Below are positions 8,042 to 45,031 of a stretch of DNA of 64,000 nucleotides, piece after piece. The notes below the pieces were generated by a model. It did no database searches. It saw nothing but the letters and a program-made list of their open reading frames with translations, and was not told the origin of the DNA. The stretch is taken from contig NZ_CP016438.1 in NCBI RefSeq assembly GCF_001685355.1, positions 9,734,001 to 9,798,000 of the forward strand, in the 5' to 3' direction. The position numbers and the translations under genes were made by a program. The first letter of the stretch is position 1. Each line of letters begins with the position of its first letter. The DNA comes from Streptomyces lincolnensis. GTDB lineage: Bacteria > Actinomycetota > Actinomycetes > Streptomycetales > Streptomycetaceae.

Positions 8042-9565
8042 GTGTTGGGCGAGCACGTCGAACCCACTGGCGACATAGGCAGAACGGTGCAACAGGGGGA
8101 ATTAGTCAGCCCGTTTCCGTCGGTACGCGGGCAGCCGACGGACGGGGAAATCAGCCGGCCCGCGATCGACTGGGAGCAGCGGTACCGCCGTACTGTGATC
8201 ATCAGCGATACCGTGGCCACCGCCTTCGTGGTGGCGGCCATCGGCGGCTTCTTCGGAGCCCGGGACGCGGCCAACTGGCATGAGAAGTGGAGAATTCTCG
8301 CCTTCGGCACCGAGCTCCTGGTGATCGGAGCGCTCGCGATGAGCCGGGCGTGGGCTCCGGCCGTACTCGGCCAGGGCGCCGAGGAGTTCCGCCGGCTCGG
8401 ACGCTCCGTGTTCACAGCGGCCGTCGTACTGTCGCTCGGCGGGATCGCCCTCAGCTCGCGCAACATCAAACTCTGGATCTTCGTCGCGGTCCCGGCGATC
8501 GCGCTCGTCACGATGACCGAGCGGTATCTGCTCCGCCTCTGGCTGCACAAACAGCGAAAACAAGGACGGTGTCTGCGACCGGTGCTCGCTGCCGGCAGCC
8601 CGGCCACCGTGCGCGACCTGATCGCCCGAGCCCGTAAGTTCCCGCATCTCGGCTGGCGGGTGGAGGCGGTCTGCACACCGAACGGTCTGGGGGTCGGCGA
8701 TGGCCGACTGGACGGCGTGCCGGTCGTCGGACGGCTGACGGACGTCGCTCACCAAGTCCGCCAGGGCGGCTACCGGGTCGTCGCGGTCACACCCGCCCCG
8801 GACTGGTCACCGGAGCGGCTCCAGCGGCTGGCCTGGAACCTCGAAGGCAGCGATGCCGAGATGGTCGTGGCCCCGGTGCTGATGGAGGTGGCCGAACCAC
8901 GGCTCCAGGTCGACGCGGTGCTCGGGATCCCGCTGCTGCGGGTCAGCATGCCGACCTTCACCGGGGGCCGCCGGGTGATCAAGGGGATCGTCGACCGGGT
9001 GGGCGCGGCGCTGCTGTTGGTGCTGTTCGCGCCGTTGATGGTGTTCATCGGGATACTCGTGCTGGCGGACAGCCCGGGCGGGGTGTTCTACCGCCAGCGC
9101 AGGGTCGGCAAGGCCGGCCGCGAGTTCACGATCTTCAAGTTCCGCACCATGGTCGCCGGGGCCCACGGGGCACGTGCCGCGCTGGCGGACCACAACGAGG
9201 GCGCCGGCCTGCTGTTCAAGCTCCGTAGGGATCCGCGGGTGACCCGGGTGGGGGCGGTGCTGCGCCGGTACTCGATCGACGAGCTCCCGCAGCTCTTCAA
9301 CGTGCTCACCGGCTCGATGTCGCTCGTCGGCCCGCGGCCACCGCTCCCGGAGGAGTCCGCCGAGTACGGCCCGGACATCCGGCGGCGGTTGCTGGTCAAG
9401 CCCGGGCTCACCGGCCTGTGGCAGATCAGCGGACGCAGCGACCTGCCGTGGGAGGAGGCGGTACGGCTGGACCTGCGGTACGTGGAGGACTGGTCGCTCG
9501 CCCTGGACGCAGTGATCTTGTGGAAGACGCTGCGTGCGGTGCTGCAGGGCCAGGGGGCGTACTGA
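8042..9565 (+). CDS. Exopolysaccharide polyprenyl glycosylphosphotransferase (priming enzyme)
   Basis: A 507-residue WbaP/CpsE-type enzyme. It transfers a sugar-1-phosphate to undecaprenyl phosphate at the membrane and starts each repeat unit. Several hydrophobic segments fill residues 45-160, followed by a CoA-binding-like cytoplasmic domain, one more membrane segment (ALLLVLFAPLMVFIGILVL) and the C-terminal catalytic domain. That domain shows FYRQRRVGKAGREFTIFKFR, DELPQLFNVLTGSMSLVGPR and KPGLTGLWQISGRSDLPW. GTG 8042 was chosen because GGGGGAGGAATC precedes it; TTG 8045 is an alternative. A TTA codon at 8102-8104 (about codon 21) suggests bldA-dependent translation. It heads the glycan locus. 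Confidence 0.9.
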   Translation: MLGEHVEPTGDIGRTVQQGELVSPFPSVRGQPTDGEISRPAIDWEQRYRRTVIISDTVATAFVVAAIGGFFGARDAANWHEKWRILAFGTELLVIGALAMSRAWAPAVLGQGAEEFRRLGRSVFTAAVVLSLGGIALSSRNIKLWIFVAVPAIALVTMTERYLLRLWLHKQRKQGRCLRPVLAAGSPATVRDLIARARKFPHLGWRVEAVCTPNGLGVGDGRLDGVPVVGRLTDVAHQVRQGGYRVVAVTPAPDWSPERLQRLAWNLEGSDAEMVVAPVLMEVAEPRLQVDAVLGIPLLRVSMPTFTGGRRVIKGIVDRVGAALLLVLFAPLMVFIGILVLADSPGGVFYRQRRVGKAGREFTIFKFRTMVAGAHGARAALADHNEGAGLLFKLRRDPRVTRVGAVLRRYSIDELPQLFNVLTGSMSLVGPRPPLPEESAEYGPDIRRRLLVKPGLTGLWQISGRSDLPWEEAVRLDLRYVEDWSLALDAVILWKTLRAVLQGQGAY

Positions 9566-9638
9566 TGCGCGGCGGCCGATGTCCGGCCGGCGCGCGGACC
9601 GCAGGCCGCAAGGGCCTGCCTGGGGGGAGGAACGGGTC

Positions 9639-10964
9639 ATGAGGGTCAGCGTCTTGGGGCTCGGCTACGTGGGCTGCGTGTCGGCAGCGTGCCTGGCCGA
9701 GATGGGTCACGAGGTCATCGGGGTGGACGTGAACCAGGCGAAGGTCGACCTGGTCAACGACGGCAAGGCCCCGGTGGTGGAGGAACGTATCGGCGAGGTC
9801 GTCGCCGAGGCGGTGCGGACGGGAGCGTTACGCGCCACCGACGACGTCCGCGAGGCGATCATGGGCAGTGAGGTGTCGTTGGTCTGCGTGGGCACGCCGT
9901 CGGAGCCCAACGGCAGCCTGTGCACCACCTACTTGGAGCGGGTCACCGAGCAGATCGGCGCCGCGCTGGCGGAGCGCGGTGGGAGCGGTGGGCGGCACAC
10001 CGTCGTGTTCCGCAGCACCATGCTCCCGGGCACCTGCCTGAACCTGCTGGTACCACTCCTGGAGAAATACGTCGGCGGCACGGCCGGGGTGGACTTCGGG
10101 GTCGCGGTCAACCCGGAGTTCCTGCGCGAGGGCACGAGCGTGCGGGACTTCTTCGACCCGCCCAAGACCGTCATCGGCGAGATCGACCCGGCGAGCGGCG
10201 ACGTGGTCGCGGCGCTGTACGACGGACTGCCCGGCGAGGTGTTCCGGGTGCCGGTCCCCACGGCCGAGGCGATCAAGTACGCGGACAACGCGTTCCACGG
10301 TCTCAAGATCGGCTTCGCGAACGAACTGGGCGCCATATGCCAGGCGCTCGGCGTGGACTCCCACCAGGTGGTGGACGTGTTCCTGGCCGACCGCAAACTG
10401 AACATCAGCCCCGCCTATCTGCGGCCCGGCTTCGCCTTCGGCGGCTCCTGCCTGCCCAAGGACCTGCGCAGCCTGGTCCACGCGGCACAACGCGCCGACG
10501 TCTCGGTGCCCATCCTCGCCCACGTGCTGCCCTCCAACTCCGCCCATCTGCAACGCGCGGTGGACCTGGTCGAGCGCACCGGCAAACGCCGGGTGGGCCT
10601 GTTCGGGCTGTCCTTCAAACCCGGCACCGACGACCTCCGCGAGAGCCCGCTCGTCGAGCTGGCGGAAAGACTCCTCGGCAAGGGCTACGACCTGAAGATC
10701 TACGACGGCAACGTGAACCTCTCCCGGCTGCTCGGCGCGAACCGCGAGTACATCGAGAACCGGCTGCCGCACATCGCGCAGCTGCTCACGGACTCCGTCG
10801 ACGAGGTGCTCGAACACGCGGAGGTGTGCCTGGTCGGCACCAAGGACCCGGCGGTGCTGTCGGCGCTGCCCCATGGTGACGGCCCGGTGCTGGTCGACCT
10901 CATCCGCCTTCCCGACGCCGAGGCGCGCCGGACCGAACCGGGGTACGTGGGCCTTGTCTGGTGA
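9639..10964 (+). CDS. Nucleotide-sugar dehydrogenase, probably GDP-mannose 6-dehydrogenase (AlgD-like)
   Basis: A 441-residue member of the UDP-glucose/GDP-mannose dehydrogenase family, which oxidises a sugar nucleotide twice with NAD to a uronic acid. The N-terminal Rossmann motif is VLGLGYVGCVSA. The central domain has KYADNAFHGLKIGFANE, and the catalytic cysteine lies in FGGSCLPKDL (about residue 271). FGLSFKPGTDDLRESP is conserved. The C-terminal signature NLSRLLGANREYIENRLPHI resembles AlgD more than Ugd, so GDP-mannuronate is the likely product. ATG 9639 follows GGGGGGAGGAACGGGTC. In-frame TTA at 9828-9830. Substrate choice is inference. Confidence 0.85.
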   Translation: MRVSVLGLGYVGCVSAACLAEMGHEVIGVDVNQAKVDLVNDGKAPVVEERIGEVVAEAVRTGALRATDDVREAIMGSEVSLVCVGTPSEPNGSLCTTYLERVTEQIGAALAERGGSGGRHTVVFRSTMLPGTCLNLLVPLLEKYVGGTAGVDFGVAVNPEFLREGTSVRDFFDPPKTVIGEIDPASGDVVAALYDGLPGEVFRVPVPTAEAIKYADNAFHGLKIGFANELGAICQALGVDSHQVVDVFLADRKLNISPAYLRPGFAFGGSCLPKDLRSLVHAAQRADVSVPILAHVLPSNSAHLQRAVDLVERTGKRRVGLFGLSFKPGTDDLRESPLVELAERLLGKGYDLKIYDGNVNLSRLLGANREYIENRLPHIAQLLTDSVDEVLEHAEVCLVGTKDPAVLSALPHGDGPVLVDLIRLPDAEARRTEPGYVGLVW

Positions 10965-10965
10965 C

Positions 10966-12219
10966 GTGAGGGGCGGTGCCGGGCAGGGCCGGCGCGCGCT
11001 GATTCTGGTGGAGAACCTGTCGGTGCCGTTCGACCGGCGGGTGTGGCAGGAGTGCACGACCCTGCGCGAGGCGGGCTGGGAGGTGCACGTCATCTGTCCG
11101 CGGGGACAGAAACGGGACACGGAGCCGGAGGCGGTGATCGACGGGGTGCGGATCCACCGCTACCCGTTGCGCGCGGCCACCGGAGGGCCGGCCGGCTACC
11201 TGCGGGAGTACGGATCGGCGTTGTGGCACACGGTCCGGCTGGCCCGCAAGGTCGGCCCGGTCGACGTGGTCCACGCCTGCAACCCGCCCGACCTGCTGTT
11301 CCTGCCGGCACTGTGGATGAAGCGGCGCGGCGCGCGGTTCGTCTTCGACCAGCACGACCTGGTGCCCGAGCTGTACCTCTCCCGGTTCGACCGCGGCGAG
11401 GACCTGCTCTACCGCGCCGTGTGCGCGCTGGAGCGGAGGACCTACCGGGCCGCGGACATCGTGCTCGCCACCAACGAGAGCTACCGGGACGTCGCGGTGC
11501 GCCGGGGCGGCCGGCGGCCGGAGGACGTCTTCGTGGTGCGCAGCGCGCCCCAGACCGACCGGTTCCAACCGGTGCCGTCCGAGCCGGAGTTGAAGCACGG
11601 CAAGTCTCATCTGCTGTGCTACCTCGGCGTCATGGGCCCGCAGGACGGTGTCGACTACGCGTTGCGAGCCCTGGCGAAACTGCGTGACGAGCTCGGGCGG
11701 ACCGACTGGCACGCGGTGTTCGTCGGGGCCGGCGACGCCTTCGACGCGATGGTGGAGCTGTCCGGGCGGCTCGGGCTGGCCGAGCAGGTGCAGTTCACCG
11801 GGCGTATCCCGGACGCCGACCTGGTGCGCTACCTGTCCACCGCCGACGTCTGTCTTTCGCCGGACCCGCGCAATCCGCTCAACGACGTGTCGACCATGAA
11901 CAAGGTCCTGGAGTACATGGCGATGGCCCGGCCGATCGTCTCCTTCGACCTGAAGGAGGCGCGCGTCTCCGCCGGCGACGCCGCCGTGTACGCACCCGCC
12001 AACGACGAGGCCGCGTTCGCCGGGCTCATCGCGGATCTGCTGGACGATCCGGAGCAGCGGGCCCGGATGGGCAAGATCGGCCAGGAACGGATCAGCGGGC
12101 CGCTCGCCTGGCGGAACTCCCAGGCGTCGCTGCTCGCCGCCTACGGCGCCGCCTGCCGCGACCAGGCTCCGGTGTCCGCGGGCGACCGGGTCAGGATCGG
12201 GAAGAGGCGCCGTAGTTGA
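10966..12219 (+). CDS. Glycosyltransferase family 4 (GT-B fold)
   Basis: A 417-residue GT-B enzyme. The N-terminal half has ILVENLSVPFDRRVWQE and VVHACNPPDLLFLPAL; the C-terminal half has CYLGVMGPQDGVDYALRA, HAVFVGAGDAF and the nucleotide-sugar site region DVSTMNKVLEYMAMARPIV. It should add a sugar from an activated donor to the lipid-linked repeat unit on the cytoplasmic face. The start is uncertain: GTG 10966 lies one base after the previous stop, while TTG 10954 would overlap it. Neither has a strong ribosome binding site, so coupling to the dehydrogenase gene is likely. The end overlaps the next gene by four bases. Confidence 0.85.
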   Translation: MRGGAGQGRRALILVENLSVPFDRRVWQECTTLREAGWEVHVICPRGQKRDTEPEAVIDGVRIHRYPLRAATGGPAGYLREYGSALWHTVRLARKVGPVDVVHACNPPDLLFLPALWMKRRGARFVFDQHDLVPELYLSRFDRGEDLLYRAVCALERRTYRAADIVLATNESYRDVAVRRGGRRPEDVFVVRSAPQTDRFQPVPSEPELKHGKSHLLCYLGVMGPQDGVDYALRALAKLRDELGRTDWHAVFVGAGDAFDAMVELSGRLGLAEQVQFTGRIPDADLVRYLSTADVCLSPDPRNPLNDVSTMNKVLEYMAMARPIVSFDLKEARVSAGDAAVYAPANDEAAFAGLIADLLDDPEQRARMGKIGQERISGPLAWRNSQASLLAAYGAACRDQAPVSAGDRVRIGKRRRS

Positions 12220-13586
12220 GCGAGGACACGATACGCCTGGTCACGATCGGGCGGGTCATTCATCGGCGGTGGCGGCTGCTCACCGTCCTCGCCGTGGTGG
12301 GCGCGCTCGTCGGCTTCGGCGCCTCCGTGGTGTTTCCGCCGCGCTACACGACGTCGGCATCGGTCCTGCTGTCGGGGCAGTGGGAGGAGCGTGAACTGCT
12401 GACCCAGACGGCGATCGCGACCAGTTCGGTCGTGGTCGACCGCGCGGCCGACAGGCTCGGCTGGACCGCGGTCAGCGGCAACGAACTGCGCGAACGTGTG
12501 ACCGCGACGGCCGCCGAAGGAAACATCATCAAGATCTCGGGTACCGCCGACACCCCCGAGCATGCGCAGCGGCTCGCCGACCAGGTGGCCGAGGAGTACG
12601 TCGCCTTCGCCGCGCGGCTCGCGGGCGACACCACCGACCCCGACGTGGCGACGCGGCCCGAGGCGCTGCGCAAGCTGGTGGTGCAGACCAGCCGCCGCAT
12701 CACCGAGCTGGCCGACGCGGCCGATCCGGGGCAGAGCGTGGAAAGCGTGCAGGGCCGCACCGAGCTCGAAAAGCTGCGCACCTCGCTCCTGGAAGCCATG
12801 GAAAAGCTGGAGCAGGTCGACCCCTCGCTCAACAAGGCCAACATGGTCGTCATGGGACCGGCGGCCCGGCCGGCCGGCGAGGCCCCGCCCACCAGGACGC
12901 AGTTCGTCGCCGCCGGGGCGCTGCTGTTCTTCCTGCTCGCCGTCATCGGCCATCTGGCCGCCGCACGGGTGAGCCGCCGACCGCGTACCGAACCGGAGAT
13001 GGCCGCGGCGCTGGGCTCGCCTCTGCTGGGGTCCGTCGACGTACCCGGTGAACGGCGCGCGCGGCGGCCCCGGGGCCGCGGCCCCGGGGCCTGGACGCGC
13101 TGGCTCCTCGGCGTCGACACCCGGTGGGACACACCGACCCCGCAGGCATCCGACGGCGAGGCCGGCCGGCAGATCCGCTACCGGAGAGTGTGCGCCCGCC
13201 TCCGGAACCAACTGCCGGCCACCCGGCGACAGCTGCTGGCGGTCGTCCCGGACGACGACGACACCGCCCGCCGCGCCGCCGAACGGCTCGCCGCCGAGGC
13301 AGGCGGCGATCCGCTGCTGCGGGTGGTGGAGCTCTCGGTGTCCCGGCCGCTGGTTCCGGACCGCGCCACCGAGTCCGGAGCCGTGGTCGTGATCGGCGCG
13401 GGCAGCCGGACCGCGGGAGAGCTCGCCGGCATCGCCGAGGCCTGTGCGGACGCCGGGCATGACGTGGTCGGCATCGTCATCGCCGACACGGTCCGGGTCC
13501 GTACGACGCGGTCTGCCGGCGCTCCGCCGGAGGGCACCGTGCCGGCGGCCGCGGTGGGCGCGGACACGGGGGGAGGCCCAGCGTGA
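12216..13586 (+). CDS. Wzz/PCP-type chain-length protein with degenerate kinase-like domain (first copy)
   Basis: A 456-residue protein. Residues 20-40 form a membrane helix (LLTVLAVVGALVGFGASVVF), then a periplasmic-type region with coiled-coil helices around 150-205, and a second membrane helix near 230-250 (FVAAGALLFFLLAVIGHLAA). This is the layout of Wzz and CapA-type polysaccharide co-polymerases. The C-terminal 130 residues follow the order of a bacterial tyrosine-kinase domain (LLAVVPDDDDTARRAAERLA, then AVVVIGAGSRTAGELAGI, then GHDVVGIVI), but no Walker A lysine motif is present. TTG 12216 overlaps the previous stop and follows GAAGAGG. It probably helps set polymer length with Wzy. 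Confidence 0.75.
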   Translation: MSEDTIRLVTIGRVIHRRWRLLTVLAVVGALVGFGASVVFPPRYTTSASVLLSGQWEERELLTQTAIATSSVVVDRAADRLGWTAVSGNELRERVTATAAEGNIIKISGTADTPEHAQRLADQVAEEYVAFAARLAGDTTDPDVATRPEALRKLVVQTSRRITELADAADPGQSVESVQGRTELEKLRTSLLEAMEKLEQVDPSLNKANMVVMGPAARPAGEAPPTRTQFVAAGALLFFLLAVIGHLAAARVSRRPRTEPEMAAALGSPLLGSVDVPGERRARRPRGRGPGAWTRWLLGVDTRWDTPTPQASDGEAGRQIRYRRVCARLRNQLPATRRQLLAVVPDDDDTARRAAERLAAEAGGDPLLRVVELSVSRPLVPDRATESGAVVVIGAGSRTAGELAGIAEACADAGHDVVGIVIADTVRVRTTRSAGAPPEGTVPAAAVGADTGGGPA

Positions 13587-15136
13587 CGACGAGCACGATG
13601 CCGGAGCCGCCGGCCACCGCTCCGCTCTTCGACGTACAGGCACTGGTGGTGGCGGTCCGCAGACGCCGCCGCTTGTGGTGCCTCGCCGCGCTGCTCGGCC
13701 TGCTGGCCGGTGCGGCGGTGGCGGTCCTGCTGCCGCCACCGCCGACCGCGGTGACCACGGTGCTGGTCGCGCACGAGGCGGATCAGCCGAACGACCCCGG
13801 AACGCTGATCCGCACCGACGCCGCACTGCTCCAGACCACGCGGATCGCCGGCCAGGCACTGAAGTCCCTGCGATCCCCGGAACGCCCGGAGGACTTCATG
13901 CTGGACTACCAGGGCGTCGGCCTCACCAACAACCTGCTGCGGATCACGGTGACGGGCGACAGCGACGCGGAGGCGGTGGCCCGCGCCAAGGCGCTGGCCG
14001 ACGCGTTCGTCCAGGACCACGTGCGCCGCATACAGCAGGCGGCGAGCGCCGAAGCCAAGGCTCTGCTCGGCCAGCGCGACGCCCTGCGCGACGAACTGGC
14101 GCAGGTCAACGCCGAGATCGGCGACGGAACGCCGGAGAGCGACCCGCAGACGTCGGCGAACCTGGAGTCGCTGTTCGCCCGCCGGGCCGAACTCACCTCG
14201 CGGATCGCCGACTTCGACCAGCGCGCCGAGCAGGCGCGTGTGGGCACGCCCCGGCTCATCGCGGGCACGCAGATCGTGGACGCCGCTCGCGCGACACAGC
14301 ACTCCGTGCCCAGGACCGCCGTCACCAACGCCGGGATCGGACTCGTCCTCGGACTCGTCCTCGGGCTCGCGCTGGCCGCGGTCGGCGTGGTGGTGGCGGA
14401 CCGCCCCGTGCTGCGCCGGCAGATCGCGACGCACCTGGGCGCCTCGGTCATCGCGGAGCTGCCCCGCCGGCCGGCACGGCTGTGGCAACGCCGACGGACC
14501 CGGGCGGCACGCGAACGGCTCACCGCGACCCTGGCCCGCACCGTGCGCGGCTCCGCGGAACCGCTGTCCCTGCTGGAACTGGGCTGTACGCGCAGTGCGA
14601 GCGCGATCGCCCTGGACCTCGCCCGGACGCTGGCGACGGAATCGCCGGTGGTCGTCGTCGACGGCCTGCCCGGCCGGCAGCTCGTCGACCGCCGCCGCGC
14701 GCCGGGAGATCCGACCGTGGTCAGCGGCGAGCACGCCGAGGCCGTATCGCCTCAGGAACGCCGGCTGGGCCTCGGCTCGGTCGCGCCCGGCACCGCGTGG
14801 ACCGACCTCCGTCACCTCGGCACGCAGACCGTGCTCGTCGTGCGGGCCGGGCACGGCAACGCCGCATGGCTGCACACCGTGGCGCGGCAGCTCGCGGACC
14901 AGCGCATCGAGGTGATCGGTGTGGTGCTGACCGACCCCGATCCACGTGACCGGACCGACGGCACGCTGTGGGACGGCGCGCACACCGCGCTGCGCGGCCG
15001 CGGCGAACGGCCGGCCCGGCAGAACGGTGGGGGTACCTCCCACGCCGTTCAGGCAGTGGGGGAGGGACGGCAGCGGACGGAGCGGGAGCCGATATGGGCC
15101 GCGCGGGTTACGGACAACGACCAGGAGGCGCGGTAG
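13583..15136 (+). CDS. Wzz/PCP-type chain-length protein with degenerate kinase-like domain (second copy)
   Basis: A 517-residue protein. A membrane helix near residues 33-52 (LAALLGLLAGAAVAVLLPPP) is followed by about 190 residues with long helices (EAKALLGQRDALRDELAQVN), a second membrane helix near 250-272 (IGLVLGLVLGLALAAVGVVV) and a CapB-like domain. In that domain the P-loop position reads LELGCTRSASAIALDLARTL, without the GKS lysine. The late strands TVLVVRAGHGNAAWLHTV and IEVIGVVLTD are kept. GTG 13583 overlaps the first copy by four bases. The last 45 codons include a short interspersed repeat (15026-15066) that adds GGGTSHAVQAVGEGR to the protein. Confidence 0.75.
   Translation: MTTSTMPEPPATAPLFDVQALVVAVRRRRRLWCLAALLGLLAGAAVAVLLPPPPTAVTTVLVAHEADQPNDPGTLIRTDAALLQTTRIAGQALKSLRSPERPEDFMLDYQGVGLTNNLLRITVTGDSDAEAVARAKALADAFVQDHVRRIQQAASAEAKALLGQRDALRDELAQVNAEIGDGTPESDPQTSANLESLFARRAELTSRIADFDQRAEQARVGTPRLIAGTQIVDAARATQHSVPRTAVTNAGIGLVLGLVLGLALAAVGVVVADRPVLRRQIATHLGASVIAELPRRPARLWQRRRTRAARERLTATLARTVRGSAEPLSLLELGCTRSASAIALDLARTLATESPVVVVDGLPGRQLVDRRRAPGDPTVVSGEHAEAVSPQERRLGLGSVAPGTAWTDLRHLGTQTVLVVRAGHGNAAWLHTVARQLADQRIEVIGVVLTDPDPRDRTDGTLWDGAHTALRGRGERPARQNGGGTSHAVQAVGEGRQRTEREPIWAARVTDNDQEAR
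15026..15066 (+). repeat. Streptomyces short interspersed repeat inside a coding sequence
   Basis: The stretch GGTGGGGGTACCTCCCACGC followed by CGTTCAGGCAGTGGGGGAGG matches a type of palindromic repeat common between Streptomyces genes. CTCCCAC can pair with AGTGGGGGAG. Here it lies inside the 3' end of the second Wzz-like gene and is translated without a stop. The family assignment is from memory of such repeats, not from a search. Confidence 0.65.
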
Positions 15137-15139
15137 CAC

Positions 15140-17062: not shown

Positions 17063-17079
17063 GAATCAGAGGAGTACGG

Positions 17080-21224: not shown

Positions 21225-21234
21225 GGGGCTGGTG

Positions 21235-22881: not shown

Positions 22882-22882
22882 G

Positions 22883-24196: not shown

Positions 24197-24198
24197 TC

Positions 24199-28069: not shown

Positions 28070-28072
28070 ACC

Positions 28073-29098
28073 TTGCGCGTACTGCTCACCGGACACCAGG
28101 GCTACCTGGGCACCGTGATGGCCCCGGTCCTCACGGCCGCCGGACACGAGGTCGTCGGCCTCGACTCCGGCCTGTTCGCCGACTGCGTCCTCGGCCCGAC
28201 ACCCGCCGACCCGCCCGGGCACCGGGTCGACCTGCGCGACGTCACAGCGGAACACGTGGCCGGCGTCGACGCCGTGATCCACCTCGCCGCGCTGTCCAAC
28301 GACCCGCTGGGCTCCCTGGCACCGCAGCTCACCTACGACATCAACCACCACGCGTCCGTACGACTGGCCCGGCTGGCCCGCGACGCCGGAGTGCGGCGCT
28401 TCCTGTACGCATCGACCTGCTCGGTCTACGGCGCCGCCGGCGGTGACGACCTGGTGGCCGAGGACGCCCCGCTGCGCCCGGTGACACCGTACGCGGAGTC
28501 CAAAGTGCGGGTGGAGGACGACCTGCACGCCCTGGCCGACGGCGACTTCAGCCCCGTGTACATGCGCAACGCCACCGCCTTCGGCTACTCGCCCCGGCTG
28601 CGCGCCGACATCGTGCTCAACAACCTGGTCGGCCACGCGCTGCTGTCCGGCGAGGTGCTGGTGCTCTCCGACGGCACCCCCTGGCGTCCGCTGGTGCACG
28701 CCGCCGACATCGCCCGGGCCTTCACGGCCGCGCTGACCGCGCCGTACGAAGCGGTGCACGACCGGGCGTTCAACATCGGCAGCGAGATCAACAACGTCAC
28801 GGTCGCCGAGATCGCCGCGCAGGTCGCCGAGGCGGTGTCCGGCTCCAAGGTGGTGATCACCGGCGAGAACGGGGCCGATCCGCGGTCGTACCGGGTCGAC
28901 TTCTCCCGGTTCCGCGCCGCGCTGGAAGGCTTCGACTGCGAATGGACGGTGAAGCAGGGCGCCCTCGAACTCGCCGACGCCTACCGCAAACACGGGCTGA
29001 CCGGGGAGGACTTCGAGCGACGCTTCACCCGCCTCGCCGTGCTGCGCGCGGCGACCGACACCGGCGCCGTCGACGACACCCTGCGGTGGCGCCGATGA
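28073..29098 (+). CDS. NAD-dependent nucleotide-sugar epimerase/dehydratase
   Basis: A 341-residue extended SDR. The N-terminal motif is VLLTGHQGYLGTVMAPVL, with VIHLAALSNDPLG, ASTCSVYGAA and the catalytic YAESK. PLVHAADIARAF and FNIGSE are typical of the sugar-modifying group. It could be a 4-epimerase, a 4-keto reductase or a 4,6-dehydratase; the sequence alone does not decide. TTG 28073 is used because GGGGGATTGAACC precedes it and the Rossmann strand begins at codon 2. Its end overlaps the next gene by four bases. Confidence 0.8.
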   Translation: MRVLLTGHQGYLGTVMAPVLTAAGHEVVGLDSGLFADCVLGPTPADPPGHRVDLRDVTAEHVAGVDAVIHLAALSNDPLGSLAPQLTYDINHHASVRLARLARDAGVRRFLYASTCSVYGAAGGDDLVAEDAPLRPVTPYAESKVRVEDDLHALADGDFSPVYMRNATAFGYSPRLRADIVLNNLVGHALLSGEVLVLSDGTPWRPLVHAADIARAFTAALTAPYEAVHDRAFNIGSEINNVTVAEIAAQVAEAVSGSKVVITGENGADPRSYRVDFSRFRAALEGFDCEWTVKQGALELADAYRKHGLTGEDFERRFTRLAVLRAATDTGAVDDTLRWRR

Positions 29099-30393
29099 CC
29101 GAGACCGGCGCGCAGCCGACGACCACCACCGGCGAGGAGATGCACTCGCTGGTGGAACGGCTGTACCCGCTGTGCCGCAGCATCACCGGCGACGGAGTGC
29201 GCGCCACCTTGGACATCGTCGGCGAGTACATCCCGCTGCGGGTGCACGAGGTACCGACCGGAACCCAGGTGCTCGACTGGACGGTGCCGCAGGAGTGGAA
29301 CATCCGCGACGCGTACATCGCCGACAGCACCGGCCACCGGATCGTCGACTTCGCCGCGTCCAGCCTGCACGTGCTCGGCTACAGCGTGCCGATGTCGGCG
29401 ACCATGCCGCTGGCCGAACTGCGCGCACACCTGCACACCCTGCCGGACCACCCGTCCTGGGTGCCGTACCGCACCAGCTACTACAAGCCGGAATGGGGGT
29501 TCTGCCTGGCCCAGGACACCCTGGACGCGATGCCGGACGGCGACTACGAGGTGCGCGTCGACTCCACCCTCGCCGACGGCCACCTCACCTACGCCGAGCA
29601 CGTGGTCCCCGGCCAGGTCGCCGACGAGGTGATCGTCTCCTGCCACGTCTGCCACCCGTCGCTGGCCAACGACAACCTGGCCGGCATCGCGGTGGCGGCC
29701 TTCCTGGCCCGCGCGCTGGCGGCTCAGAAGCCGTGGTACACCTACCGGTTCATCTTCGCGCCCGGCACCATCGGGGCGATCACCTGGCTGGCCCGCAACG
29801 CGGAGCGGGTGGAACGGGTCAGGCACGGCCTGGTGCTGGCCTGCGCGGGCGACCCGGGCCCGCTGACGTACAAGCAGAGCAGGCGCGGCGACGCGGAGAT
29901 CGACCAGGTGATGCGGCACGTGCTCACCGCCTCCGAACGCCCGCACCGCGTCACCGAGTTCACCCCGTACGGCTACGACGAACGGCAGTACTGCTCGCCC
30001 GGGTTCGACCTCGGCGTGGGCTCGCTCACCCGGACCCCGTACGCCGGCTACCCCGAGTACCACACCTCGGCGGACAACCTGGACTTCGTCTCCCCGGAGG
30101 CGATGGCCGACACCCTCGCGGTCTGCCGCGAGGCGTTCGCCGTACTGGACCGCAACCGGAGGTACGTCAACCTCAGCCCCTACGGCGAACCACAGCTGGG
30201 CCGGCGCGGGCTGTACGACTCGCTCGGCGGCCGCAGCGACGCCCAGCAGGCCCAGATGGCCATGCTCTGGGTGCTCAGCCTCTCCGACGGCGAGCACAGC
30301 CTGCTCGACGTCGCCGAGCGGTCCGGGCTGGCGTTCGACACCGTCGCCGCCGCGTCCGACGCCCTGCACGGCGCCGGGTTGATCAAGGCATGA
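29095..30393 (+). CDS. DUF4910 / M28 aminopeptidase-like protein with winged-helix tail
   Basis: A 432-residue protein. The first part (MHSLVERLYPLCRSITGDGV, and WTVPQEWNIRDAYI) is the hallmark of the DUF4910 family. The centre has an M28 peptidase-like metal site: CHVCHPSLANDNLAG and YHTSADNLDFVSPEA. The last 70 residues resemble a winged helix (LDVAERSGLAFDTVAAASDA). These genes recur inside sugar-modification operons next to PIG-L and RfbF-like genes, so it probably removes or transfers an acyl or aminoacyl group on a sugar rather than degrading protein. That role is inference. ATGA overlaps on both sides. Confidence 0.75.
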   Translation: MTETGAQPTTTTGEEMHSLVERLYPLCRSITGDGVRATLDIVGEYIPLRVHEVPTGTQVLDWTVPQEWNIRDAYIADSTGHRIVDFAASSLHVLGYSVPMSATMPLAELRAHLHTLPDHPSWVPYRTSYYKPEWGFCLAQDTLDAMPDGDYEVRVDSTLADGHLTYAEHVVPGQVADEVIVSCHVCHPSLANDNLAGIAVAAFLARALAAQKPWYTYRFIFAPGTIGAITWLARNAERVERVRHGLVLACAGDPGPLTYKQSRRGDAEIDQVMRHVLTASERPHRVTEFTPYGYDERQYCSPGFDLGVGSLTRTPYAGYPEYHTSADNLDFVSPEAMADTLAVCREAFAVLDRNRRYVNLSPYGEPQLGRRGLYDSLGGRSDAQQAQMAMLWVLSLSDGEHSLLDVAERSGLAFDTVAAASDALHGAGLIKA

Positions 30394-31697
30394 CGGCGAT
30401 GACCACCGAGGGGGAGGAGACGGCGCCGTCGGCACCCAGGGCCGCGCTTGCCTGGCGTGCCGTCGCCGGACGGCTTTCCTGGGGACTCGCCGACCAGGCG
30501 GCCTCCAGCCTGACCAACTTCGCGGTGGGCATCTACGTGGCACGCTCGCTGGGGCCGGCCGCGTTCGGCGTGTTCAGCCTGGCCTGGGTGACCTACGGCG
30601 TCGTGCTCAACGTCTCCCGCGGGCTGGCCACCGACCCCCTGATGGTGCGCTTCAGCGCGGTGCCGGCCGCCTCCTGGCGCGCGGCGGTGGCCCGGTCGTC
30701 GGGTACCGCGCTCGGCGTCGGCACCGCGCTCGGCGCGGCGTGCGCGGTGGTCGGGCTGATCCTCGGCGGCACCGTGGGCCTCGCGTTCGTCTGGCTCGGC
30801 GTCGTGTTGCCGGCGCTGCTGCTCCAGGACGCCTGGCGGTTCGCGTTCTTCGCCGCGGGCAGTGGACGCAAGGCCGTCGTCAACGACCTGGTGTGGGGCG
30901 TCACCCTCATCCCGGCCATGGTGGTGGCCGCTCGCGTGGGCAGCGTGGCCGCCTTCGTGGTCGCCTGGGGCGCGTCCGCCGCCCTGGCCGCGGTGTACGG
31001 CTGCGTTCAGTCCGGCATCCGGCCCCGCGTGACAGGAGCGCGCGGGTGGCTTCGCGAGCACCGCGACCTCGGCTACCGGTACCTGGTCGAGAACGTCAGC
31101 CTCAGCGGCGCGGTCCAACTGCGGGCCTACGGGCTCGGCGCGATCGTCGGTGTCGGCGCGGTGGGTGTGGTCCGAGGCGCCGAACTGCTCCTCGGACCGT
31201 TCCTCGCCGTGCTGATGGGACTGTCGCTGGTCACCGTCGCGGAGGCGGCACGGGTGCTGCGCCAGGCCCCGCACCGCCTCGCCAAGTTCTGTCTCCTGCT
31301 GGGCGGCGGGCAGGCCGCCGCCGCGCTGCTGTGGGGCGCGGCCCTGCTGCTGGTGCCGGACCGCGGCGGCGAGCTCGTGCTCGGCGCTGTCTGGACCTCC
31401 GCCTCGGAGCTCATCGTGCCCGCCACCCTCGGCGTCGCGGGCGCCGGCCTCGGCGTCGGCGCGGCGGCCGGACTGCGCGCGCTCGGCGCGGCCCGGCGCA
31501 GCCTGCGCAGCCAGCTGTTCGCCTCCGCCTGCTACGTCACCGGCGGACTCGGCGGAGCGGCCGTCGCCGGCACGATCGGCTCGGCCTGGGGCGTCGCCGC
31601 GGCGACCCTCAGCGGCTCGGCCGTGTGGTGGCTGCACCTGCGGTCCGCCCTGCGCGCGCACCACCAACCCCCCATCCGTGAAGTGAGGACTCCATGA
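30390..31697 (+). CDS. Oligosaccharide flippase-like membrane protein (Wzx candidate)
   Basis: A 435-residue protein with about twelve hydrophobic segments. The N-terminus (ADQAASSLTNFAVGIYVARS and LGPAAFGVFSLAWVTYGVV) has the layout of MOP-superfamily polysaccharide exporters. It should flip the lipid-linked repeat unit to the outer face, before Wzy polymerises it. It is the only exporter candidate in the locus. Start ATG 30390 overlaps the upstream stop; a second in-frame ATG four codons later is possible. Confidence 0.75.
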   Translation: MTAMTTEGEETAPSAPRAALAWRAVAGRLSWGLADQAASSLTNFAVGIYVARSLGPAAFGVFSLAWVTYGVVLNVSRGLATDPLMVRFSAVPAASWRAAVARSSGTALGVGTALGAACAVVGLILGGTVGLAFVWLGVVLPALLLQDAWRFAFFAAGSGRKAVVNDLVWGVTLIPAMVVAARVGSVAAFVVAWGASAALAAVYGCVQSGIRPRVTGARGWLREHRDLGYRYLVENVSLSGAVQLRAYGLGAIVGVGAVGVVRGAELLLGPFLAVLMGLSLVTVAEAARVLRQAPHRLAKFCLLLGGGQAAAALLWGAALLLVPDRGGELVLGAVWTSASELIVPATLGVAGAGLGVGAAAGLRALGAARRSLRSQLFASACYVTGGLGGAAVAGTIGSAWGVAAATLSGSAVWWLHLRSALRAHHQPPIREVRTP

Positions 31698-32641
31698 CCG
31701 CCCATCCCCGGTTGAGCATCGGCCTGCCCGTCTACAACGGCGAGCAGTACCTGCCCGAATCGCTCGACGCGCTCCTCGGCCAGACCTACGAGGACTTCGA
31801 ACTGGTCATCTCCGACAACGCCTCGACCGACAGGACCGAGGAGATCTGCCAGAAGTACGCCGCCCGGGACTCCCGCATCCGCTACCTGCGGCTGCCCCGG
31901 AACATCGGCGCCGCACCGAACCACAACTACGTGTTCACCCAGTGCCGCGGCGAACTGTTCAAGTGGGCCTCGCACGACGACCTGTACGCCCGGGACCTGC
32001 TGTCGCGCTGCGTCCAGGCGCTGGACGAGCGGCCGGACGTGGTCCTCGCCCACGCCGACCAGGCGGTCATCGACGGCGACGGCCAGGTGAAGGTCCCCTA
32101 CGAGTACACGCTCGCCACCGCCTCGCCGCACGCGCCGGAACGATTCCGCAGCTTTCTGTACGAGCCCGGCGGCGACGACTTCTACGGGGTGATGCGGGCC
32201 GACATGCTGCGCAGGGTCAAGCCGCACGACAGCTACCACCACGCGGACCGCACGTTCGTCGCCGAGATCGTGCTGCACGGGCCCTTCCACCAGGTGCCGG
32301 AACTGCTGTACTTCCGCCGCGACCACCCCGACCGGGCCGAGCGGGCGAACCCGTCCAAGCGTTCCCGGTGCGCCAACCTGGACCCGCGCCGGGCAGGCCC
32401 GCTGCACCCGACGCCCCGACTGCTCGCCGAGTACGTCTGGGGCTTCGCCTCGGCGATCCGGCGGGCGCCGCTGTCCCCGGCCGACCGGCGCGCCTGCTAC
32501 CGCCACCTCGCGCTGTGGATGACCAGCCGGGTCCGGCCGGGCGCCGGCGAGCGGGTCGAGGACCGCGCCCCCGTCGACCCGGCCCTGCTCACCGTCTCCG
32601 TCGACGACGTCGTCGCCGGCCGAGAGGGAAGGCAGCTGTGA
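31694..32641 (+). CDS. Glycosyltransferase family 2
   Basis: A 315-residue GT-A enzyme. LSIGLPVYNGEQYLPESLDA begins the nucleotide-sugar domain, with DFELVISDNASTDRTEEI and the metal-binding region FKWASHDDLYARDLL (the DxD equivalent is HDD). The C-terminal 80 residues are helical. It should add one sugar of the repeat unit in the cytoplasm. ATGA and GTGA overlaps link it to the flippase and the pyruvyltransferase genes. Confidence 0.88.
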   Translation: MTAHPRLSIGLPVYNGEQYLPESLDALLGQTYEDFELVISDNASTDRTEEICQKYAARDSRIRYLRLPRNIGAAPNHNYVFTQCRGELFKWASHDDLYARDLLSRCVQALDERPDVVLAHADQAVIDGDGQVKVPYEYTLATASPHAPERFRSFLYEPGGDDFYGVMRADMLRRVKPHDSYHHADRTFVAEIVLHGPFHQVPELLYFRRDHPDRAERANPSKRSRCANLDPRRAGPLHPTPRLLAEYVWGFASAIRRAPLSPADRRACYRHLALWMTSRVRPGAGERVEDRAPVDPALLTVSVDDVVAGREGRQL

Positions 32642-33867
32642 ACACCCCGGTGCGCGTCGGGGTGTTCGGCCTGCTCGGCTCGGGCAACCTCGGCAACGAC
32701 GGGTCGCTGGAGGCCGTACTCGGCTACCTGCGCGCCGCGCACCCGGAGGCGGCCGTGGACGCCCTGTGCGGCGGACCCCGGGTCGTCGAGGCCCGGTACG
32801 GGATCCCCGCGACACGGCTGCACTGGAACCGCGGCGAGTACCGGACCGCCTCACGCGCCGGCGCGATCGCGGCCAAGGGCCTGGGCAAACTCCTCGACGC
32901 CGTCCGCACCGCCGCCTGGGTGCGCCGCCACGACGTGGTGATCGTGCCGGGCATGGGCGTCCTGGAGGCCACCCTGCCGCTGCGGCCATGGGGCTTCCCG
33001 TACTCACTGTTCCTGCTCTGCGCCAGTGGCCGGCTGCTGCGCACCCCGGTCGCGCTGGTCGGCGTAGGCGCCGCCCCGATCGGCGACCGGCCGACCCGGG
33101 CCCTGGTGCGCTGGTCGGCACGCCTCGCTGCGTACCGCTCCTACCGTGACACCGCCTCCCGTGACGCGATGCGGGACATGGGCGTGGACACCGGACGCGA
33201 CGAGGTCTACCCGGACCTCGCGTTCGCCCTGCCGGCGCCGGAGGCGAGCGCGCCCCCGGACGGCCCGCCGGGCACGGTCTGCGTCGGCGTCATGGACTTC
33301 CACGGCGGCAACGACGACCGGGCCCGGGCCGAGGAGATCCACCGGCGCTACCTCGACGGGACGACCCGCTTCGTCCGGGCACTGGTCGAGGACGGCAGAC
33401 CGGTCCGGCTGCTCACCGGCGACCAGTGCGACGCGGCGGTGGTCGCCGCGATCCTCGACGCGGTCGACTCGCCGCTGGTCACCGCCGCCGAGACGGCCTC
33501 GCTGGCCGACCTGATGAAGGAGACGGCGGCTGCCGACACCGTGGTGGCGACCCGCTACCACAACCTGATCTGCGCCCTGAAGGCCGGCACACCGACGCTC
33601 GCGCTCAGCTACGCGTCCAAGAGCGACGCGCTCATGGACCGGATGGGCCTCGGCGCCTACTGCCACCCGGCCCGCGAGGTCGACGCCGACCGGCTGCTGG
33701 AGCAGTTCCGGGCGCTGGAGAAGCGATCGGCGCAGCTGCGGCAGACACTCCGCGAGCGCAACCAGGTCGCCGCCCGGCAACTCGAGGACCAGTTCACCGC
33801 CTTGACCGGCGCCCTGTTCCCCTCGGCAGACCACACCCACGCCCACGCGTACAAGGAGGTCCGATGA
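32638..33867 (+). CDS. Polysaccharide pyruvyl transferase family protein
   Basis: A 409-residue protein of the CsaB/WcaK type. The N-terminal GVFGLLGSGNLGNDGSLEAV and the C-terminal VVATRYHNLICALKAGTPTL with ALSYASKSDALM are family hallmarks. It would attach a pyruvate ketal to a sugar of the polymer, adding negative charge; surface-layer proteins often bind such groups. The donor is normally phosphoenolpyruvate. GTG 32638 overlaps the previous stop. A Lys/Arg-rich helical tail precedes the next gene. Confidence 0.82.
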   Translation: MNTPVRVGVFGLLGSGNLGNDGSLEAVLGYLRAAHPEAAVDALCGGPRVVEARYGIPATRLHWNRGEYRTASRAGAIAAKGLGKLLDAVRTAAWVRRHDVVIVPGMGVLEATLPLRPWGFPYSLFLLCASGRLLRTPVALVGVGAAPIGDRPTRALVRWSARLAAYRSYRDTASRDAMRDMGVDTGRDEVYPDLAFALPAPEASAPPDGPPGTVCVGVMDFHGGNDDRARAEEIHRRYLDGTTRFVRALVEDGRPVRLLTGDQCDAAVVAAILDAVDSPLVTAAETASLADLMKETAAADTVVATRYHNLICALKAGTPTLALSYASKSDALMDRMGLGAYCHPAREVDADRLLEQFRALEKRSAQLRQTLRERNQVAARQLEDQFTALTGALFPSADHTHAHAYKEVR

Positions 33868-34415
33868 AGGCGACCGAAGTCCCGGAGATCTCCGGCGCGT
33901 ACCTGTTCGAGCCGACGCCGTACGCCGACGAGCGCGGCTTCTTCTGCCGCACCTTCGACGCCGACCTGGTCCGCTCGGTGGGCCTCGACCCGGACGCCTT
34001 CGTCCAGGACAGCCTGTCCCGCTCGCTCCGGGGCGTGCTGCGCGGCCTGCACCTGCGCTCCGGCGCCGGCGAGGCCAAGCTCGTGCGCTGCTCGTACGGG
34101 AAGATCTTCGACGCCGTCGTGGACCTGCGGCCGGACTCGCCGACGTACCTGGGCCGGGCCTTCTTCGAGCTGTCCGGCGAGACGCAGGCGACCTTGTACA
34201 TCCCGGCGGGGTGCGCGCACGGCTTCCAGGCGCTGACGGAGACCGCTGACACCTCGTACCGGATCGACCGTCCGCACGATCCCGCCGAGGACGTGACGAT
34301 CGCCTTCGACGACCCGGAGCTCGCCATTCCCTGGCCGCTGCCGGTCACCTCGATGTCCAAACGGGACCGGGAGGCGCCGAGCCTCGCCGAGGTCCTTTCG
34401 CAGAAGGAGAGTTGA
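33864..34415 (+). CDS. dTDP-4-dehydrorhamnose 3,5-epimerase-like protein (RmlC family)
   Basis: A 183-residue cupin of the RmlC family. PTPYADERGFFCRTFDADLV, GVLRGLHLRSGAGEAKLVRC (with the catalytic His in RGLHL), GKIFDAVVDLRPDSPTYLG and YIPAGCAHGFQALTETADTS are all conserved. It should epimerise C3, C5 or both on a 4-keto-6-deoxy nucleotide sugar. No RmlA, RmlB or RmlD is in the window, so its substrate is probably the keto sugar of the RfbF-type pathway. It overlaps the previous gene by four bases. Confidence 0.85.
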   Translation: MKATEVPEISGAYLFEPTPYADERGFFCRTFDADLVRSVGLDPDAFVQDSLSRSLRGVLRGLHLRSGAGEAKLVRCSYGKIFDAVVDLRPDSPTYLGRAFFELSGETQATLYIPAGCAHGFQALTETADTSYRIDRPHDPAEDVTIAFDDPELAIPWPLPVTSMSKRDREAPSLAEVLSQKES

Positions 34416-34421
34416 GGCCGC

Positions 34422-35756
34422 GTGGACACCGAAGACACCGGAGAGCTCGTGCTGCCCCGGTCGCGGCTGGCGAACGAGCGGCTGCACGCCCTGATCCCCG
34501 GCGGCACGCACACCTACGCCAAGGGCGACGACCAGTACCCCGAGAACCTGGCCCCGGTCATCAGCCACGGCCGCGGCGCCCACGTGTGGGACATCGACGG
34601 CAACCGGTACATCGAGTACGGCTCCGGCCTGCGCTCGGTCAGCCTCGGCCACGCCCACCCCCGCGTGACCGAGGCGGTGCGGCGGGAACTCGACCGCGGC
34701 AGCAACTTCGTCCGGCCGTCCATCCTGGAGGTCGAGGCCGCGGAACGCTTCCTGGCCACGGTGCCCACCGCCGAGATGGTGAAGTTCGCGAAGAACGGCT
34801 CCGACGCCACCACCGCCGCGGTACGCCTGGCCCGCGCCGCCACCGGGCGCCCGCGGGTGGCCCTGTGCGCCGACCATCCGTTCTTCTCCACCGACGACTG
34901 GTTCATCGGCACCACGCCGATGTCCGCCGGCATCCCGGCGTCCACCACCGATCTCACCGTGGCCTTCCCCTACGGCGACCTGGCCGCCACGGAGGACCTG
35001 CTCACCCGGCACCAGGGCGAGGTCGCCTGTCTGATCCTCGAACCCGCCACCTACACCGAGCCGCCGCCCGGATACCTCGCCGGCCTGCGGGAGCTGGCCG
35101 ACCGGCACGGGTGTGTCCTGATCTTCGACGAGATGATCACCGGCTTCCGTTGGTCGGAGGCGGGCGCCCAGGGCCTGTACGGCGTCGTCCCCGACCTCTC
35201 CACGTTCGGCAAGGCGCTGGGCAACGGATGCGCCGTCTCCGCGCTGGCCGGGCGCCGCGAGCTGATGGAACTCGGCGGGCTGCGCCACTCCGGCGAGCGG
35301 GTGTTCCTGCTGTCCACGACACACGGCGCGGAAACGCACTCCCTGGCAGCCGCGATGGCCGTGCAGACCACCTACACCGAGGAGGGCGTCACCGCGCGGC
35401 TGCACGCCCTCGGCGAGCGGCTGGCCGCCGGTGTCCGCGACGCCGCGGCGAGCATGGGCGTCGGCGACCATGTCGTCGTGCGGGGCCGGGCCAGCAACCT
35501 GGTCTTCGCCACCCTCGACGAGAACCGGCAGCCGTCCCAGCAGTACCGCACCCTGTTCCTGCGCCACTTGCTCGCGGGCGGGGTGCTGGCCCCGTCGTTC
35601 GTGGTGAGCGCCGCGCTCGACGACGCCGACATCGATCACACCGTCGACGTCGTGGCCCAGGCATGTGCGGTGTACCGGAAGGCACTGGACGCCGCCGACC
35701 CCACGCCCTGGCTGGCCGGGCGGCCGGTGAAGCCCGTGTTCCGCCGCCTGGCCTGA
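34422..35756 (+). CDS. Class III PLP-dependent aminotransferase, glutamate-1-semialdehyde aminomutase-like
   Basis: A 444-residue fold-type I PLP enzyme. YIEYGSGLRSVSLGHAHPRV, MVKFAKNGSDATTAAVRLAR, LIFDEMITGFRWSEAGAQG and the PLP lysine in STFGKALGNGCAVSALAG are family features. True HemL belongs to tetrapyrrole synthesis, but this gene ends a sugar-modification operon, as related enzymes do elsewhere; it may aminate or isomerise a keto sugar. GTG 34422 follows AGTTGAGGCCGC. It converges on the PAP2 gene with only seven bases between stops. Confidence 0.82.
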   Translation: MDTEDTGELVLPRSRLANERLHALIPGGTHTYAKGDDQYPENLAPVISHGRGAHVWDIDGNRYIEYGSGLRSVSLGHAHPRVTEAVRRELDRGSNFVRPSILEVEAAERFLATVPTAEMVKFAKNGSDATTAAVRLARAATGRPRVALCADHPFFSTDDWFIGTTPMSAGIPASTTDLTVAFPYGDLAATEDLLTRHQGEVACLILEPATYTEPPPGYLAGLRELADRHGCVLIFDEMITGFRWSEAGAQGLYGVVPDLSTFGKALGNGCAVSALAGRRELMELGGLRHSGERVFLLSTTHGAETHSLAAAMAVQTTYTEEGVTARLHALGERLAAGVRDAAASMGVGDHVVVRGRASNLVFATLDENRQPSQQYRTLFLRHLLAGGVLAPSFVVSAALDDADIDHTVDVVAQACAVYRKALDAADPTPWLAGRPVKPVFRRLA

Positions 35757-40518: not shown

Positions 40519-40545
40519 AGCACGGACCCCGACCTCTGGAGTTGC

Positions 40546-40557
40546 GTTGCGCGCAAC
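40546..40557 (+). promoter_or_regulatory. Palindromic operator candidate upstream of betA
   Basis: GTTGCGCGCAAC is a perfect 12-bp palindrome 67 bases before betA, set in GAGTTGCGTTGCGCGCAACCTG. A near-identical context (GAGTTGCGCAACCTG) lies before the dehydrogenase gene at 50941. Probable site of a shared regulator. Confidence 0.6.
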
Positions 40558-40624
40558 CTGGTGCGCATGGTGCTACCGGTCTACGATGCCTGGCGTATCT
40601 GTGGCGCGAGCGAGACGAGGCACC

Positions 40625-42277: not shown

Positions 42278-42421
42278 ACGCTCGTCGTATACAACAGGGG
42301 GGCGTCCGGGACGTCGTCCGTGGTCGGGGGAGTGCCCGCCTGGTCGAATCGTCATCCGCCAACCCCTTGACGTGGGTCCGGCCATTCGCCAGGGTGTTCC
42401 ACCACAAGCAATCGGGTGCAC

Positions 42422-42431: not shown

Positions 42432-42455
42432 GACTTCGTTCGAAAGGCTCGGCGC

Positions 42456-45030
<2,575 letters not shown>

Positions 45031-45031
<1 letters not shown>

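Follow-up and report, generated by a model that had tools for sequence, protein, structure and literature searches.

A conserved Streptomyces polysaccharide operon pairing an AlgD-type dehydrogenase with a heparinase-fold protein that has no recognisable signal peptide

A window of 64,000 nucleotides from Streptomyces lincolnensis (contig NZ_CP016438.1, positions 9,734,001 to 9,798,000; the genome is a single contig of 10.3 Mb) holds, at window positions 8042 to 35756, 21 + strand genes, mostly overlapping or touching, that make up a polysaccharide operon of the Wzx/Wzy type. We refer to these genes as g01 to g21 in their order and give coordinates in the window. The operon is real, conserved, and already catalogued in Streptomyces. 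Genes were called from domain searches against Pfam and NCBIfam, sequence comparison with the PDB, and counts of transmembrane (TM)-like segments. These searches recovered the gene families that a first-pass annotation, made from the DNA alone, had named here when it proposed an alginate-like, uronic-acid exopolysaccharide.

The first gene, g01 (8042..9565), encodes a polyprenyl glycosylphosphotransferase (Bac_transf, 215 bits; TIGR03025, 400 bits, above its cut-off), the type of enzyme with which building of the repeat unit begins on its lipid carrier; the start first assigned at 8042 is probable, being a GTG preceded by GGAGG. Two Wzz-like co-polymerases with two TM-like segments each are encoded by g04 (12216..13586; Wzz, 24.9 bits, just below the cut-off of 25.5) and g05 (13583..15136; 40.9 bits), the latter with a cytoplasmic tail. 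The candidates for polymerase and flippase are both polytopic: the Wzy-like g10 (22874..24196) has 10 TM-like segments and a Wzy_C match of 20.1 bits, below the cut-off of 31.7, and the Wzx-like g17 (30390..31697) has nine TM-like segments and no Pfam or NCBIfam match. Of the full set of Wzx, Wzy, and Wzz candidates listed in the first-pass annotation, Wzz is confirmed by g05, and Wzy and Wzx stay candidates; the undecaprenyl Wzx/Wzy route that it proposed is supported. Domain matches identify three further glycosyltransferases, namely g03 (10969..12219, exact start uncertain), a family 4 enzyme (GT4a) predicted to be a mannuronosyltransferase, g11 (24193..25398, with an ATG at 24199), also of GT4, and g18 (31694..32641), of GT2. 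A polysaccharide pyruvyl transferase is encoded by g19 (32641..33867, exact start uncertain; PS_pyruv_trans, 97.2 bits).

The product of g02 (9639..10964) is clearly an AlgD-type GDP-mannose 6-dehydrogenase (GMD) by sequence type, as first annotated, and is predicted to oxidise GDP-mannose. Compared over its full length with all solved structures, it matched Pseudomonas aeruginosa AlgD (1mfz) with 469 bits and the next dehydrogenase with 222.6 bits. Six residues of the AlgD substrate site (Lys210, Asn214, His217, Asn252, Arg259, and Cys268) are identical in the alignment, and Tyr256 is replaced by Ala. Against the NCBIfam equivalog models for UDP-glucose, UDP-N-acetylmannosamine (UDP-ManNAc), and other dehydrogenases, g02 scored far below the cut-offs, and only a general subfamily model was passed.

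Downstream of the Wzz pair, g06 (15140..17062) encodes an AsnB-type amidotransferase (Asn_synthase, 313.9 bits), in line with the earlier call; its N-terminus reads MCG, so that the glutaminase Cys2 is present, and it stands apart from the genome's remaining AsnB-type proteins (36 to 42% identity or partial matches). The best NCBIfam matches of this protein (TIGR03108, 450 bits, cut-off 817) and of g03 (TIGR04063, also below cut-off) belong to XrtA/PEP-CTERM exopolysaccharide loci. An XrtA locus was ruled out, as exosortase (PF09721) had no match in the genome (the control was positive in 1 of 14). The next gene, g07 (17128..19275, exact start uncertain), encodes a bi-domain oxidoreductase with a zinc-alcohol dehydrogenase-like part and a GFO/IDH/MocA part, identified by domain matches.

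A heparinase II/III-fold enzyme (Hep) is encoded by g08 (19272..21224; Hepar_II_III_C, 166.6 bits). The heparinase part of the earlier description, heparinase/alginate-lyase-like, is upheld; the Alginate_lyase match (20.6 bits) falls below the cut-off of 22.2. The protein does not have the look of an exported lyase, a signal peptide being the sole feature tested. Heparinase III (PL12) is an exported enzyme, whereas g08 has no recognisable signal peptide. A hydrophobic N-terminal segment was found in 0 of the 47 members, which argues for action inside the cell, and g08-type proteins probably work in the cytoplasm. N233, Y287, and H438, matching the catalytic Asn, Tyr, and His of heparinase III, are kept in 44, 44, and 45 of the 47 sequences, respectively. 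The structural relatives of g08 are uronate lyases and the C5-epimerase DS-epi1, with heparinase III and the PL17 lyases nearest to it in fold. Minute changes in the active site have been suggested to be able to turn a lyase into an epimerase, in a paper that also describes DS-epi1 as a Golgi luminal protein (PMC8006597), which sets it apart from g08 with its lack of a recognisable signal peptide.

The adjoining g09 (21232..22881) encodes a beta-helix lipoprotein with the lipobox LLAVTGC. It had been described as being of the AlgG/lyase type, and while the lipobox and an AlgE/AlgG-like fold stand, the YGFDPH/DPHD motif, the catalytic motif of AlgG/AlgE beta-helix C5-epimerases, occurs in 0 of 30 family members, the window protein included. 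A looser DxH[DE] pattern is present in 23 of the 30, the window protein not among them, and a PDB sequence search with g09 gave no match up to an E value of 10.

The earlier reading was silent on a sugar-modifying module at 25399 to 35756. Its first gene, g12 (25399..26634), is closest to sugar 3-C-methyltransferases of antibiotic pathways (D-mycarose 3-C-methyltransferase 4rv9, 293.5 bits; 5t6b, 271.9 bits; TcaB9, 257 bits). It is followed by g13 (26631..27425), an RfbF-like sugar-1-phosphate cytidylyltransferase (TIGR02623, 183.8 bits, cut-off 300) that is closest to glucose-1-phosphate cytidylyltransferase (1tzf, 146.5 bits), and by domain matches for a PIG-L family deacetylase (g14, 27422..28069) and an SDR epimerase/dehydratase (g15, 28073..29098). 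The DUF4910 protein g16 (29095..30393; 385.8 bits; solved relative 3k9t, 497 bits) belongs to a family for which a part in making modified polysaccharides has been proposed (PMC4000134). Beyond the export and transfer genes lie g20 (33864..34415), an RmlC-like 3,5-epimerase (dTDP_sugar_isom, 178.2 bits; TIGR01221, 151 bits, just below the cut-off of 156), and g21 (34422..35756), a class III aminotransferase resembling glutamate-semialdehyde mutase (NF004856, 718.7 bits, cut-off 486). Together, these seven genes suggest a 3-C-methylated, perhaps amino, deoxysugar that is probably CDP-linked.

The first-pass annotation had recommended a search for the same gene order in other genomes. A scan of GTDB contigs for g08 relatives gave 363 stretches, of which the best 80 were retained for order counts; by title these are Streptomyces, save for two Kitasatospora and one "Actinobacteria bacterium". 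Genes 1 to 17 occur in the window's order in 76 of these 80 named relatives. Three of the remaining four have a partial gene set, which fits with the three short stretches (9 to 14 kb) in the set, and the fourth is without only a g01 match. All 21 genes are in the window's order in the three loci read at full length (G088, G107, and G013). Of 246 genomes of the same genus, 92 carry g02, the window's own counted (in 89 it is full-length and ≥88% identical, in three it is frame-split at 84 to 91%), and 91 carry g21, all with g02; G161 alone has g02 without g21. The spacing between the two genes was 24.7 to 25.1 kb in the 11 genomes measured. Given the order kept in 76 of 80 loci and the joint presence of g02 and g21 in 91 of 92 g02 carriers, the operon is not a chance association. 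It was also found on Streptomyces plasmids.

The operon corresponds to the "deoxysugar" cluster SCO0381-0401 of Streptomyces coelicolor, a match on which the earlier reading was likewise silent and which we draw from gene number, order, and published descriptions, not from sequence. That cluster is described as 21 genes, possibly one operon, two of them with TTA codons, and its proteins are reduced in a bldA mutant (PMC2000904). A published table runs in the same order from a glycosyl transferase (SCO0381) through a bi-domain oxidoreductase (SCO0387) to a glutamate-1-semialdehyde aminomutase (SCO0401), with transcripts higher in the second mycelium (PMC3610822). The name "deoxysugar cluster" also appears in PMC8981147, PMC2267785, and PMC6414726, nine genes of the cluster are reported at reduced levels in a Streptomyces lividans adpA mutant (PMC4021200), and SCO0382 is listed as algD (PMC6629963). 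The passages of the transcriptome and proteome papers that name SCO0381-0401 do not state its product; GDP-mannuronate has already been proposed for the cluster (PMC5982138). In the window, TTA (bldA) codons occur at 8102, 9828, 17051, and 27539, that is, in g01, g02, g06, and g14. Of 76 named relatives that are complete, 48 have at least one TTA codon in the aligned parts of genes 1 to 17, and 39 have one in g02, in agreement with the bldA dependence reported for SCO0381-0401.

Parts of the operon recur outside Streptomyces. In a collection of 72,556 plasmid records, g08 relatives (E ≤ 1e-20) occurred in 10, and an AlgD-like GMD lay within ~10 kb in all 10. Nine of these are within the 30 GMD records listed, and the tenth is that of Rhizobium 32-5/1, in which the genes are split. 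The hosts are three Streptomyces, two near-identical Shinella, three Rhizobium, Deinococcus aetherius, and Paroceanicella, or about seven independent lineages. The weakest GMDs, from R. rhizoryzae (39.5% identity, 291 bits) and Rhizobium 32-5/1 (269 bits for the main piece), are just moderately closer to g02 than are other dehydrogenases of the same genus (up to ~210 bits). Nine records were opened (L150 to L155 and L159 to L161), and in all nine a g03 relative adjoins GMD or lies within ~1.2 kb of it, a count that is not unbiased, since the records were mostly chosen for a nearby Hep and 22 of the 30 GMD records were left unread. These g03 relatives share 46 to 51% identity outside Streptomyces and Nonomuraea; among solved structures g03 itself gave a weak match (31 bits) to a GDP-mannose-dependent mannosyltransferase. 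The GMDs of all nine records contain an LNxS...GGSCLPKD stretch, and six (L150, L151, L152, L155, L159, and L161) contain a K...N..H stretch, which the pattern used did not match in the more distant L153, L154, and L160. The GMD and/or Hep gene is split in L160 (Rhizobium 32-5/1; 9424 to 13891) and L150 (16904 to 18566), by either sequencing error or decay.

In D. aetherius, relatives of g01, AsnB, g08, g02, and g03 follow one another and those of RmlC, SDR, and the cytidylyltransferase lie nearby, and two distant actinobacteria (G286 and G329) keep g02, g03, g06, g07, and g08 together at 47 to 64% identity. In phylum-wide samples, g02 was found in 15 of 396 genomes and g08 relatives in 15 of 296, 10 non-Streptomyces in each case, and GMD has an adjoining g03 relative in 5 of the 10 non-Streptomyces GMD loci. 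On the basis of these neighbourhoods, an AlgD-type GMD, one GT4 family, and a heparinase-fold enzyme are found together often, but not always, in Actinomycetota, Pseudomonadota, and Deinococcota. This grouping seems new: among open-licence papers we found none describing it, none linking Streptomyces, alginate, heparinase, and asparagine synthase, and none combining any three of bi-domain oxidoreductase, heparinase II, asparagine synthase, exopolysaccharide, and PIG-L. Actinoplanes exopolysaccharide clusters were ruled out as a match, since heparinase, asparagine synth-, and mannose are absent from the main text of the paper on them (PMC13390465). The Nonomuraea gerenzanensis record (L161, 15001 to 31293) carries GMD-GT4a-RmlC together with opposite-strand relatives of the cytidylyltransferase, PIG-L, SDR, DUF4910, and GT2 genes (35 to 78% identity). 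Here the module for the CDP-sugar and that for mannuronate occur together without the remodelling genes g06, g07, and g08, none of which was found in the 31 kb read.

Relatives of g07 occur in 28 of 396 phylum genomes, comprising five Streptomyces, G286, G329, and 21 others. Eighteen of the 21 were examined, in stretches of which some were 3 to 10 kb; three partial-match genomes (G417, G491, and G532) were left out. These 18 loci contain g08 relatives in 8, AsnB in 11, and WecB-like and/or WecC-like genes in 10 (WecB-like matches at 33 to 52% identity, one weak and partial). WecB and WecC supply UDP-ManNAc and its uronate, UDP-ManNAcA. Gene rows of this kind include g07-g08-WecC-WecB in Parabacteroides, WecB-WecC...g07-g08 in Sphingobium, and WecB/WecC-g07-AsnB in Streptomyces HUAS 15-9. 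In none of the 18 were the other dehydrogenases of this superfamily from the window's genome (three paralogues as queries, type unverified) the best match. Judged by type, the sugar dehydrogenases seen beside g07 would yield a manno-configured uronate.

Gene content, conservation, the AlgD type of g02, the catalytic residues, and the lack of a recognisable signal peptide in g08 are read directly; the substrates, the order of steps, the epimerisation, and the role of g09 in what follows are predictions. It is very probable that the operon assembles and exports a mixed surface polymer with a mannose-derived acidic sugar. We think it reasonably probable that a single heteropolysaccharide arises from all 21 genes by Wzx/Wzy export, containing a GDP-mannuronate-derived uronate that is remodelled by cytoplasmic g08. 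That it is a heteropolysaccharide is implied by the three glycosyltransferases found in addition to the initiating phosphoglycosyltransferase, by the pyruvyltransferase, and by the 3-C-methyl sugar module. In this pathway, g01 would load the first sugar onto the polyprenyl carrier, g02 would convert GDP-mannose to GDP-mannuronate, and g03 would transfer mannuronate to the lipid-linked unit. The uronate would be remodelled by cytoplasmic g08 with g07, most likely via C5-epimerisation, and its carboxylate amidated by g06. A second sugar, 3-C-methylated, probably aminated, and probably CDP-linked, would be made by g12 to g16, g20, and g21; g11 and g18 may attach further sugars, and g19 pyruvate. 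The unit would then be flipped by g17 and polymerised by g10, with length fixed by g04 and g05, while lipoprotein g09 may trim, modify, or bind the polymer outside. Most worth testing are how mannuronate is supplied, the module shared across phyla, and the probably cytoplasmic enzyme with the heparinase fold, and with donor sugars and steps named, the S. coelicolor cluster becomes testable by deletions.

We favour a uronate C5-epimerase as the function of g08. If g08-type proteins are biosynthetic epimerases, many "alginate lyase" and "heparinase" annotations in surface-polysaccharide loci would be misleading, and the family would offer a candidate enzyme to explain how bacterial glycans come to contain L-configured uronates. 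Conversion of D-ManNAcA to L-GalNAcA entails inversion at both C3 and C5. In P. aeruginosa PA14, whose O-antigen contains alpha-L-GalNAcA (PMC2997053), zbdP, which encodes a zinc-dehydrogenase plus GFO/IDH/MocA protein, forms an operon with the heparinase-family gene hepP (PMC5732420). By description this resembles g07-g08, although PA14 has an amino-uronate in place of mannuronate and the setting is a Gram-negative O-antigen. In the Vibrio cholerae polysaccharide VPS, 2-acetamido-2-deoxy-guluronic acid is present, and the authors of that study proposed that it forms from ManNAcA by inversion at C5 (PMC3901696). By analogy, these cases and the neighbours of g07 suggest that g07 acts at C3 and g08 at C5. 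We can therefore speculate, tentatively and with doubts that outweigh our confidence, on an undescribed hexuronate 3,5-epimerisation module in which g07 oxidises and re-reduces C3 and cytoplasmic g08 inverts C5, turning manno- into L-galacto-uronates before export. In the window it would convert GDP-mannuronate to L-galacturonate, which AsnB would amidate, and in O-antigen or capsule loci such as that of PA14 it would convert UDP-ManNAcA to L-GalNAcA. If so, L-guluronate would be expected where Hep occurs without g07 (Rhizobium and Shinella), and a "lyase" fold would serve as a biosynthetic epimerase inside bacteria. Open-licence papers yielded no role for zbdP or hepP in L-GalNAcA synthesis. 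WbgV and WbgZ of L-AltNAcA pathways were dropped as a heparinase precedent, since WbgZ is named as a C-5 epimerase and the main text of the paper mentions neither heparinase nor alginate lyase (PMC9723277).

Several observations weigh against an exclusive association of these genes or against the roles proposed for g07 and g08. Of the 10 non-Streptomyces GMD loci, four lack a GT4a relative within 1.5 kb and a fifth has just an upstream GT4 of 33% identity; of the 10 non-Streptomyces Hep loci, three have g02 in the 7 to 20 kb read and seven have no GMD there; g07 and g08 do not co-occur everywhere; and an AlgD-type gene lies near g07 in 0 of the 18 other loci. In a plate assay for heparinase, recombinant HepP gave a positive result, and the hepP mutant is unlike the zbdP mutant in pellicle, biofilm, and worm killing, a difference for which the authors suggest hepP expression from within zbdP as the cause (PMC5732420).

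That assay lends weight to the most serious alternative, which we consider less probable but a real contender, namely that the operon makes the same heteropolysaccharide with g08 as a genuine lyase, either clearing away faulty lipid-linked units or trimming the chain, the uronate staying D-mannuronate or its amide. The mostly kept heparinase III residues and the fold of g08 agree with such a role. However, with 47 of 47 members lacking a hydrophobic N-terminus, a lyase would cut the cell's own building blocks in the cytoplasm, and g08 stays beside biosynthetic genes in several phyla.

The "deoxysugar synthase" annotation in S. coelicolor would instead suggest a deoxysugar pathway decorating a small secreted metabolite, and the antibiotic-sugar type of g12 and the listing of the cluster with secondary or specialised metabolism (PMC3610822, PMC8981147) point the same way. 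We find this improbable, given that one conserved operon also encodes the Wzz pair, the Wzy- and Wzx-like proteins, and the initiating transferase of the polyprenyl type. The alginate-like mannuronate/guluronate polymer exported by Wzx/Wzy, as first proposed, appears more improbable still. The operon shares with alginate biosynthesis (AlgD/Alg8/Alg44/AlgG) an AlgD-type dehydrogenase and the AlgE-like fold of g09, to which heparinase-like g08 adds its sub-threshold alginate-lyase match; a uronic-acid-bearing polymer is retained from the proposal. It differs in its lipid-linked assembly and its several additional sugars, as seen in three glycosyltransferases beyond the initiator, the C-methyl sugar module, and the pyruvyl transferase, as well as in a g09 without the AlgG/AlgE motif and a g08 that does not look secreted. 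No Alg8/Alg44 synthase was recognised among the 21 genes (no genome-wide search was made), and AlgX/AlgJ acetylation (PF16822) had no match in the genome, the control also being without a match. A teichoic- or teichuronic-type cell-wall glycan is very unlikely too: a uronic acid in a Gram-positive host and the weak scores that g18 and g11 reach with the TuaG and TuaC models, well short of the cut-offs, are set against no polyol-phosphate family among the matches of the 21 genes and a TuaD score for g02 of 230.8 against a cut-off of 700.

Further along the window, about 1 kb downstream of the operon, 36855 to 38357 encodes an FG-GAP repeat protein with a signal-like N-terminus; on a Streptomyces KN37 plasmid, an FG-GAP protein lies ~18 kb upstream of the same operon. 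A probable choline/betaine locus, judged by its gene families, follows at 39592 to 48007, with a LysR regulator, a GMC (choline-oxidase-like) oxidoreductase, an aldehyde dehydrogenase, ABC transporter parts, and a glycine-betaine-type binding protein. Sarcosine oxidase subunits, a folate dehydrogenase/cyclohydrolase, an FAD/GCV_T protein, and a serine hydroxymethyltransferase at 50920 to 61233 probably represent a locus for betaine/sarcosine one-carbon degradation. Between the two catabolic loci, 49424 to 50503 holds a partial-length match to a DDE transposase of the ISAZ013 type.

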